The notes beneath the pieces are model-generated. The model was not told the origin of the DNA. It searched no databases and saw only the letters and a program-made list of their open reading frames with translations. The position numbers and the translations under genes were made by a program. Positions 18,642-64,000 of a stretch of DNA of 64,000 nt are shown here, one piece after another (the first letter of the stretch is position 1; every line of letters starts with the position of its first letter). The DNA comes from Alcaligenaceae bacterium (lineage in GTDB: Bacteria > Pseudomonadota > Gammaproteobacteria > Burkholderiales > Burkholderiaceae_B), in NCBI GenBank assembly GCA_012727555.1, contig JAAYGT010000115.1, positions 1 to 64,000 on the forward strand, read 5' to 3'.

Positions 18642-18864
18642 CAGAACCGCAGCCCTGCTGGTTCTTGCCGGACTTTTTGTGTGCAATGGGTGTTTGCGCG
18701 AAGGGAGCGGGTATTCGTTGACGGTTCTGTCGGGGTGCAAAGACGCGCCGGGTGCTTGAACACACCCGTAGGGCCGTGCGATGGACCCGGCGCATCTTGG
18801 TACCCCGACAGGGCCTCATGGCAATGCCCTTTGATCGCAGTGCCAAAGCCCCTTGAATACCAGG

Positions 18865-60992: not shown

Positions 60993-62063
60993 CTAGTGAT
61001 GGCGACGACTGTAGCTGTGCACTTCATCAACCAGTATGCCTACCGCTTCAGGCGGTGTGAACCGATTAATGCCATGCCCGAGATTGAACACATGCCCACC
61101 CGCACCAACGGGACCAAAATCGTCAATGACACGCCGCGCCTCTGTGCGGATTGCCTGTTCGGTGCCAAAAAGCACCATGGGATCCAGATTACCCTGAAGG
61201 GCAACGGTATCGTTGACGCGCTTGCGAACTGATCCAAGACTGGCTGTCCAGTCGAGACCCACGGCATCACACCCGGTAGCAGCGATCTGCTCAACCCACT
61301 GCCCCCCCCCCTTGGTGAACACAATGACCGGAATTCTGACACCGTTGTGCTCACGCTTCAGGGCATTGAGCACCTGCTGTGTATAAGCAAGAGAAAATTG
61401 CTGGAACAGGCCATCGGCCAAAACACCGCCCCAGCTGTCGAAGATCATGACGGCCTGCGCCCCGGCTTCGATCTGGGCGTTCAAATACTGTGCCGTTGCC
61501 TGGGCATTGATGGCAAGAATACGATGCAAAAGATCGGGACGACTATACAGCATGGTTTTGATCAGGCGGTAGTCGGAGGAGCCCTGACCTTCGACCATGT
61601 AACAACCGATGGTCCAGGGACTACCGGCAAAGCCAATGAGCGGAACGCGACCGTTCAATGCTTTGCGAATGACACTGACCGCATCGAAAACATACTGCAA
61701 ACGTTCCATTGGCGGGACCTGCAAGCGGTCGACATCGGCTTGCGTTCGTACAGGATGAGCAAACCGCGGCCCTTCACCCGCCAGAAAATCAAGACCGAGC
61801 CCCATGGCGTGCGGAACGGTCAGGATATCGGAAAACAGGATGGCGGCATCGAGTTCGAAACGCTCAAGTGGCTGCAACGTTACTTCACAGGCAAAGTCGG
61901 GATTTTGCGCCAGCCCCATGAACGATCCGGCACGGGCACGTGTTGCGTTGTATTCAGCCAGATAGCGCCCAGCCTGCCGCATAAGCCAAAGCGGCGTGTA
62001 AGGCACGGGCTGTCGCATAAGCGCGCGCAGGAAGATGTCGTTTTGCAAAGTAGGCGCTGTCAC
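60993..62063 (-). CDS. hemE: uroporphyrinogen decarboxylase (HemE)
   Basis: A 356-residue TIM-barrel enzyme that decarboxylates uroporphyrinogen III to coproporphyrinogen III. The signature [15 protein letters not shown] is near the N-terminus, followed by [44 protein letters not shown] and [16 protein letters not shown] chose the GTG at 62063 (AAGGA seven bases upstream); a TTG at 62078 is also possible. A run of ten C in the plus strand (61302-61311) encodes Gly in TKGGGQW. It follows the regulator upstream with hardly any gap. Confidence 0.95.
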
Positions 62064-62080
62064 AGAAATTTCCTTCAAGG

Positions 62081-62899
62081 TTAACCTTCCATTTTACCTT
62101 CGGTATCGTCGTCTGGAAATGAAGGGCTTCGATAGGTATCGGGGCTGATACCGTGTTTGCACATGAGAGCCCAAAAAGCGCGTCGATGTTTTTTGGCATA
62201 ACGCGCTGCCATCGCAATGTTGCCCGAAGAGCGGGCAAGCACAGCGTTAATGTACGCACGTTCAAAACCGGCCGTAACCTGAGCCTTGGCTGCCTTGAAC
62301 GAATGCCGATCCGTTGCACATGTCACAGCCTTGCCTACGGCAATAGCGTGCAACTGCCCCTCCGAGTAGTCAAGCACCCTGCTTTCGAAGCCAGGTTCGG
62401 CCAGGACAGCACTTGAGTAAACAGATGAGCGGCTCGCCGGGACATCCGACACGCAAAAATCGGTACCGGATTCGGTGTTCATCAGTGGGTAACCACCCGG
62501 GGCAAGAACCCGCTGCAGTCGTGCCCGAAGCTCTTCAAAACAGACAGGAACACGGATGAAATCGGCAATATGCATACCGTGAAGATCATTCAAGGCAGGC
62601 GCTTTAAGATCATCGCTGAGAATGACCACAGGTGTAGACAGCGCGTGTTCGGCCACTTTAAGACTGGTGCGCAAATGCCCAAGTGTGCTGGAGCTGGCAG
62701 GCAGCAAGCATACATCGAACCTGCGCAGCAACAGGGCCTTTGAAGCGAGCTCTTTGACCGAATCAGGATGATCCTCAAACAAGTCTGTAGCAACCCAGTG
62801 TACGTTTAACCGCCCTGATGCATGGGCACCCAATACGGACTTGAATTCTTTGATGCGGTGCCGGGGAGCAATCAGTGCACAATCGATTCGCTGCTTCAT
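62081..62899 (-). CDS. Fis-type HTH regulator with degenerate receiver-like N-terminus
   Basis: A 272-residue protein. The C-terminus (about 205-258) is an NtrC/Fis-type [56 protein letters not shown]. The first 120 residues have alternating strands and helices like a receiver ([37 protein letters not shown]) but the phosphoacceptor position reads PASS, without Asp. No sigma-54 AAA+ domain lies between. The start at 62899 has AAGGAG seven bases upstream. Its stop is a few bases from hemE, so the two should be co-transcribed. Confidence 0.7.
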
Positions 62900-63008
62900 A
62901 AAGTCTCCTTGTTTCATTCATTGTTTATGAATAAAAAGCATAGAACAGCGGCGCGAAACGACACAATCAGCAATAACATCAGTGATATTGTTACGTAAAG
63001 GTATACCC

Positions 63009-63176
63009 TTAAGTGCGGACCAACGACTGCGCTTTTGGTGTGTTGCTGGTTGCTTCTGATGCAGTGGTTGCTTCTGATGCGTTGTTGGTTTCTTTTGGCG
63101 GTTCTGTCGAGGGTGACGTGTGCGGTTGTGCATCACCCGGCCCTGCGGGCTTCCCGCGAATCCGTCCCTGCCCGGG
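63009..63176 (-). CDS. possible C-terminal tail of a truncated protein
   Basis: An open frame on the minus strand, stop TAA at 63009-63011, which reads as a low-complexity basic then Ser/Thr/Glu-rich tail: GRIRGKPAGPGDAQPH, TEPPKETNNASEATTASEAT, ending in SLVRT. An in-frame 18-base repeat (63048-63062 and 63066-63080) encodes ASEATT/ASEATS. There is no start inside; upstream the sequence changes to the methyltransferase DNA. It looks like a gene cut off by the junction. Identity is unknown. Confidence 0.35.
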   Translation of the reverse strand, partial: PGQGRIRGKPAGPGDAQPHTSPSTEPPKETNNASEATTASEATSNTPKAQSLVRT

Positions 63177-64000
63177 GCGGGCGGGCTTGCCCTCGGTATT
63201 GAAAAGGCGGGGTTTAATACCCTTGCTCTAATTGAGTTTGACAAAGACGCGGCGGCGACGCTTAAAACAAACCGTCCTAAATGGAATGTCATTTGTGACG
63301 ATATTGCGAATGTTTCACCGCAAGACTTAACCGCTCTTTTCGGGCTTGAAGTCGGTGAATTGGAATTACTCTCGGGCGGCGCGCCTTGTCAATCATTTTC
63401 ATACGCTGGAAAAAGACTTGGTTTAGAGGACGCACGGGGAACACTATTTTATCATTTTGCTGTATTTCTTGAAAAATTGCGCCCGAAAACCTTTTTATTT
63501 GAAAATGTGCGCGGACTGCTTACGCATAATCGCGGGAATACATATGAAACAATTCTTGAAATATTCACACAAGCGGGATATACCATTCAAAAACAAGTAT
63601 TGAACGCTTGGGATTACGGGGTTGCCCAAAAGCGGGAACGCCTTATAACTATTGGTATCCGTAACGACTTAACAGACAAAATTAAGATTGAGTTTCCCAC
63701 TCCGCACGAATACAAACCCGTATTGCGCGACGTGCTTCATGATGTTCCCGAAAGCGATGGGACGCAATATTCTGAATATAAGCGTAAAATCTTTGAGTTA
63801 GTCCCGCCCGGCGGCTGTTGGCGCGATATTCCCGCCGATATAGCAAAAGAGTATATGAAAAGTTGCTGGAATATGGGCGGTGGTCGGACAGGTATTTTAC
63901 GGCGATTGAGTTTAGATGAGCCATCATTAGCTGTATTAACTTCACCGTCCCAGAAGCAAACAGACAGATGTCATCCACTGGAAGCGCGCCCGTTCAATAT
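63120..64000 (+). CDS. C5-cytosine DNA methyltransferase, abnormal N-terminus, 3' end beyond window
   Basis: A restriction-modification type DNA (cytosine-5) methyltransferase that runs off the window after about 293 residues. Counting from the only upstream start (GTG 63120): motif I GAGGLALGIEKAGF, motif IV with catalytic Cys90 in GGAPCQSFSYAGKRLG, motif VI FLFENVRGLL with Glu128, motif VIII VAQKRERLITIG. The residues before GAGG (LCITRPCGLPANPSLP) do not look like the family, which normally has SLFxGAGG; the Phe that stacks on SAM is missing. The DNA is much AT-richer than the rest of the window and no promoter or ribosome site is visible. It looks 5'-truncated and fused to foreign DNA. 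Confidence 0.8.
   Translation, partial: MRLCITRPCGLPANPSLPGAGGLALGIEKAGFNTLALIEFDKDAAATLKTNRPKWNVICDDIANVSPQDLTALFGLEVGELELLSGGAPCQSFSYAGKRLGLEDARGTLFYHFAVFLEKLRPKTFLFENVRGLLTHNRGNTYETILEIFTQAGYTIQKQVLNAWDYGVAQKRERLITIGIRNDLTDKIKIEFPTPHEYKPVLRDVLHDVPESDGTQYSEYKRKIFELVPPGGCWRDIPADIAKEYMKSCWNMGGGRTGILRRLSLDEPSLAVLTSPSQKQTDRCHPLEARPFN

Follow-up and report, generated by a model that had tools for sequence, protein, structure and literature searches.

A methyltransferase junction within a dispersed hairpin repeat: evidence for a chimeric contig in a draft Burkholderiales genome

The DNA window analysed here, 64,000 nucleotides long and corresponding to bases 1-64000 of contig C53 (64,422 bp), belongs to a draft genome of 211 contigs and 3.37 Mb, and its right end very probably records a chimera, an artefact of assembly or library preparation, rather than a truncated resident gene, so that the methyltransferase junction would not be a biological feature. 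The first-pass annotation had offered two origins for the abrupt change of sequence, namely the joining of unrelated DNAs and the insertion of a decapitated methyltransferase by recombination; the former is now strongly favoured over the latter, because contig C155 carries what synteny identifies as the host continuation, the tail is of clostridial origin, and no second junction precedes the end of C53. C53 extends 422 bp beyond the window, to position 64422, and its AT-rich tail (63183-64422) amounts to 1,240 bp, foreign throughout.

Table 1. Features of the window and of the adjoining end of contig C53.
Feature	Position	Strand	Basis or remark
hemE (uroporphyrinogen decarboxylase), host chromosome	60993..62078	-	ORF list; 66-81% aa identity to relatives (tblastn)
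Regulator-like gene, Fis-type C-terminus, host chromosome	62081..62917	-	Orthologue between hemE and atpC in relatives
Repeat-associated flank, GTTGGTTTCTTTTG-type motifs common with C32	63047..63099	+	Query 148-283 vs C32:38129-38267, 91%
Left arm of ~220-nt dispersed hairpin, GGTTCTGTCG...CCGGGGCGGGC	63100..63182	+	Inner loop and right arm absent
Microhomology CCGGGGCGGGC, very probable chimeric breakpoint	63172..63182	+	Common to hairpin arm and methyltransferase motif-I codons
Foreign clostridial DNA, C5-cytosine methyltransferase without N-terminal codons	63183..64000	+	Coding to contig position 64151
Eco47II-type endonuclease start, cut by contig end	C53:64148-64422 (L009:1148-1422)		PF09553 2e-37, 91 residues
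Second hairpin-family copy, internally deleted	18723..18815	-	Model match 18742-18799, 29.2 bits, E 3e-4

The shift from GC-rich to AT-rich DNA noticed in the initial reading is borne out by composition, the tail having a GC content of 0.431 against 0.581 ± 0.027 (minimum 0.499) and a tetranucleotide distance of 0.656 against 0.271 ± 0.029 (maximum 0.390) in 310 host windows of equal length, all of which it falls outside on both measures. The junction is equally sharp in homology, with host similarity reaching up to 63182 and foreign similarity starting from 63172, which leaves an overlap of 11 bp. The idea of microhomology at the join therefore stands, while the sequence proposed for it, GGCGGGCGGGC, gives way to CCGGGGCGGGC, since similarity to the closest foreign locus begins at 63172 and host-repeat similarity ends at 63182. 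About 11 bp is the maximum overlap, because both flanking bases mismatch: immediately 5', a G is expected from the clostridial Ala codon (GCN, in 19/19 relatives inspected) and the window has C, and immediately 3', the closest host copies have C and the window has G. An overlap of this length is shorter than usual assembly k-mers, which makes a plain k-mer collision unlikely; a chimeric molecule in the library or a merge over a short overlap is the likelier source.

On the left, the sequence does belong to the host genome, as had been proposed; at the join itself, however, it is the arm of a dispersed hairpin and not unique sequence. The stretch 63047-63182 (~135 bases) matches about 40 other places in the genome, and these matches stop at 63181-63182, exactly at the join. 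The expected continuation of the hairpin, CCAGGACTCG..., is absent from the window together with the right arm, and the remaining half scores just 17.9 bits with the covariance model of the family. The presence of half of a dispersed hairpin on this side explains why the join fell there. The second family copy in the window has lost its inner stem, while the GTGCTTGAACAC and CCGTGCGATG motifs persist together with the outer arms.

What is most likely the other end of the interrupted hairpin lies at the start of contig C155. The opening bases of this contig, CGACAGAACC, are complementary to GGTTCTGTCG (63100-63109) and correspond to the final 10 nt of the hairpin right arm; after them come repeat flank, another complete element and atpC. 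In 12 of the relatives examined the order atpC, regulator orthologue, hemE is kept (tblastn), with atpC directly adjoining the regulator gene. The right-arm start and atpC on C155, combined with this conserved gene order, make C53 and C155 most likely neighbours, with the junction hairpin spanning the gap; their adjacency rests on synteny, because the repeat also terminates C32 and C86. In the draft assembly, at least 12 contig ends lie in a hairpin element or no more than 20 bp from one, which is consistent with the assembler failing at hairpins, and comparable false joins may be present on other draft contigs that end in an element. Examples of contigs ending in hairpins are C21, C23, C32, C47, C94, C123, C144, C202 and C204.

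The right side is, as judged by homology, the start of a clostridial restriction-modification operon minus its first codons. The reading of the frame as a C5-methyltransferase from GAGG onward was correct (PF00145 4e-58, TIGR00675 1.2e-58), both profiles beginning at position 7-9, and the catalytic motifs of PF00145 (PCQ, ENV, QxRxR) are present in the translation as PCQSFS, ENVRG and QKRER. A complete N-terminus with motif I (FxGxGG) is lacking: the window has SLPGAGG where 19/19 relatives inspected have ELFAGAGG, so that the conserved motif-I Phe is replaced. All 19 carry IELFA directly 5' of GAGG and none shares the leader found in the window, in agreement with the earlier view that the residues before GAGG were supplied by the left-hand DNA. 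Related loci (the best 80 in the public genome collection) come overwhelmingly from Clostridia, both MAGs and isolates, the top relative being an Oscillospiraceae MAG locus (L010) that comprises a C5-methyltransferase, 90% identical at the amino-acid level, and an Eco47II-type endonuclease. The DNA is collinear with this locus from 63172 to the contig end (81% identity over 1,251 bp), whereas the sequence on the upstream side of the breakpoint does not resemble it (18% ungapped).

A cognate endonuclease, which the first-pass annotation had suggested looking for past the window, does follow the methyltransferase; it is 87% identical to its counterpart in the Oscillospiraceae locus over 91 aa, and its likeness to Eco47II makes GGNCC-type specificity probable for the pair. 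The arrangement resembles known type II pairs (PF00145 + PF09553) in gene order and in the overlap of the methyltransferase stop with the endonuclease start (ATGA), and differs from them in the missing N-terminal codons, including that for the motif-I Phe, and in the endonuclease cut by the contig end. The junction copy is the only C5-methyltransferase in the whole genome, in which neither its 5' part nor its native upstream DNA was found elsewhere. A genome-wide search for Spo0A, as a sign of other clostridial material, found none, a single marker that constitutes weak evidence. Phage and plasmid origins of the methyltransferase were also considered and rejected, the phage matches listed being at most 45% identical and the plasmid matches being three distant records with 63-70% DNA identity.

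The two sides are thus of different taxonomic origin, clostridial on the right and host on the left, and in the preferred explanation the true host order would be hemE, regulator, 220-nt hairpin repeat and atpC. During sequence synthesis or assembly, the host template would have been left at the inner-stem base of the hairpin, and the host end would have been joined through the 11-bp GC-rich CCGGGGCGGGC to DNA from a co-occurring Clostridium of gut type, DNA that encodes the type II pair of C5-methyltransferase and Eco47II-like endonuclease. The join would accordingly be technical, originating either as a chimeric molecule of the library or in the merging of contigs over a short overlap. What is directly observed comprises the two homologies with their 11-bp overlap, the clostridial origin of the tail, the half hairpin, the conserved gene order and the start of C155. 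Like chimeric contigs of metagenomes and draft assemblies, C53 fuses two taxa at a short stretch common to both that adjoins a repeat, changes composition abruptly and ends soon after the join; unlike them, it has an overlap shorter than usual k-mers and a breakpoint in a strong hairpin stem, features that point to a switch of template or to a merge over a short overlap.

Recent horizontal transfer, in which microhomology-mediated repair would have brought clostridial restriction-modification DNA into the hairpin with the loss of the first ~25 codons, the contig ending inside the insert, has to be weighed against a chimera. Restriction-modification systems are mobile and are often transferred, and an 11-bp microhomology within a hairpin is a plausible substrate for illegitimate recombination; since microhomology and hairpins also serve such recombination in living cells, the breakpoint sequence alone cannot separate artefact from transfer. 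The context of the breakpoint, however, makes transfer quite improbable: the insert starts within motif I and the transferred gene would be broken, its composition is unameliorated, no second junction occurs in the 1,240 bp before the contig end, and a separate contig starts with the right-arm end and holds the syntenic atpC, which directly adjoins the regulator gene in 12 of the relatives examined. Even less credible, to the point of being negligible, is a natural functional variant whose N-terminus comes from the left-hand DNA. The frame is indeed open from a GTG at 63120 through the join, but the DNA encoding the leader is a repeat arm with many copies elsewhere, and the leader occurs in 0/19 of the relatives inspected and stands in place of IELFA and the motif-I Phe. 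A resident truncated gene, like a natural N-terminal variant, was rejected because the leader is repeat DNA. With a chimeric contig as the preferred reading, the truncated methyltransferase should be dropped as a biological claim and 63183-64422 trimmed from the genome; more generally, strong dispersed hairpins can give rise to false signals of horizontal transfer in draft genomes.

The dispersed hairpin family itself is real and widespread. Complete copies (L003, L004, L005 and others) are imperfect palindromes of ~220 nt, and a full copy folds as DNA at -97.9 kcal/mol (z = -13) into a branched structure of 62 bp with variable stems and invariant unpaired motifs. With a covariance model built from 29 copies, two-sided compensatory changes were found at 43/62 pairs within the genome and, in 22 copies from other genera, at 57/62 pairs, corresponding to 305 and 417 cells with two-sided Watson-Crick changes, respectively. 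In the 22-copy alignment, which was fitted to the model and therefore somewhat favours the structure, 94.4% of cells are paired, against 62% when shuffled and about 40% in a sliding control. The stems vary freely in matched Watson-Crick pairs, and the unpaired motifs AACTCG, CTCAAACA and CTCAAGCAC are near-invariant.

A further question is whether the fold acts in DNA or in RNA. G·U pairs make up about 1.4% of paired cells and do not outnumber A·C mismatches (23 vs 48 in alignment A1, 18 vs 25 in A3), a scarcity that argues for DNA folding or arm-to-arm copying and not for selection on RNA, and the hairpin looks maintained as DNA. A role at the RNA level, as an ordinary attenuator or transcription terminator, would fit the strong fold and the location of 12 of the 20 copies sampled in three complete, single-contig genomes between convergent genes, as assigned by a simple ORF heuristic. 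Such a function nevertheless appears unlikely, given the near-absence of G·U, the abundance of two-sided Watson-Crick changes, an element far larger than a terminator, and loop motifs that do not vary. The near-absence of G·U offers a means of telling DNA-level from RNA-level folding.

Within the genome, the covariance model gives 61 raw matches, at least 8 of which are weaker opposite-strand echoes, leaving roughly 50 copies, with examples on C32, C86, C141, C76, C155 and other contigs (L002-L008, L090-L119, L141). Across genomes, matches occur in 60/151 of the bacterial family (25/43 genera), in 23/200 across the order and in 8/274 across the class, each count including the source genome, and matches beyond the family score far lower. 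Positions look lineage-specific, the element being absent from the hemE locus in all 19 relatives examined. No hairpin was found on plasmids, and there was no sign of carriage by phages, the loose motif occurring in 120 or more viral stretches and the covariance model passing 1/100 of the loci checked, weakly (33 bits). No hairpin matches an Rfam family above the gathering score, which the nearby tRNA genes alone reach, and literature searches found no published description of the junction and no clear one of the repeat family, which merits dedicated study for the 57/62 pairs that covary between genera and for its absence from Rfam.

Among known repeats, REP/BIME and other dispersed palindromic elements are similar in being multi-copy, intergenic, palindromic and often arranged in opposite-oriented pairs. 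They differ from the present family in its length of about 220 nt, its branched 62-bp fold with variable stems and invariant unpaired motifs, and its occurrence without a Y1/RAYT gene: a search of the genome for the Y1 (HUH) transposase PF01797 gave no match, so the family does not qualify as a RAYT-mobilised REP. Structured intergenic 'Bor' repeats (Bor-1, Bor-2; PMC1590033, PMC2267715) are on record for Bordetella, among the related Betaproteobacteria; they include the 167-bp Bor-2 with 17 copies in B. bronchiseptica (PMC2267715), and they were first described as REP-like units of 26-30 bp, unlike the ~220-nt hairpin. The comparison is one of descriptions, by which the hairpin family may be partly known and overlap the Bor repeats. 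A broader interpretation can be advanced tentatively, and falls somewhat short of being probable: the elements would form an undescribed and widespread Burkholderiales class of dispersed ~220-nt branched hairpins that are both recognised and kept as folded DNA, not RNA, are spread by an enzyme that is not the REP-associated transposase, and act as hot spots of assembly breaks and chimeras.

Elements frequently lie in close pairs of opposite orientation, separated by a few hundred bases, as on C126 (4061+/4473-), C153 (133+/560-) and C141 (4088+/4424-), and such pairs also occur in two other genomes (G037 and G285).
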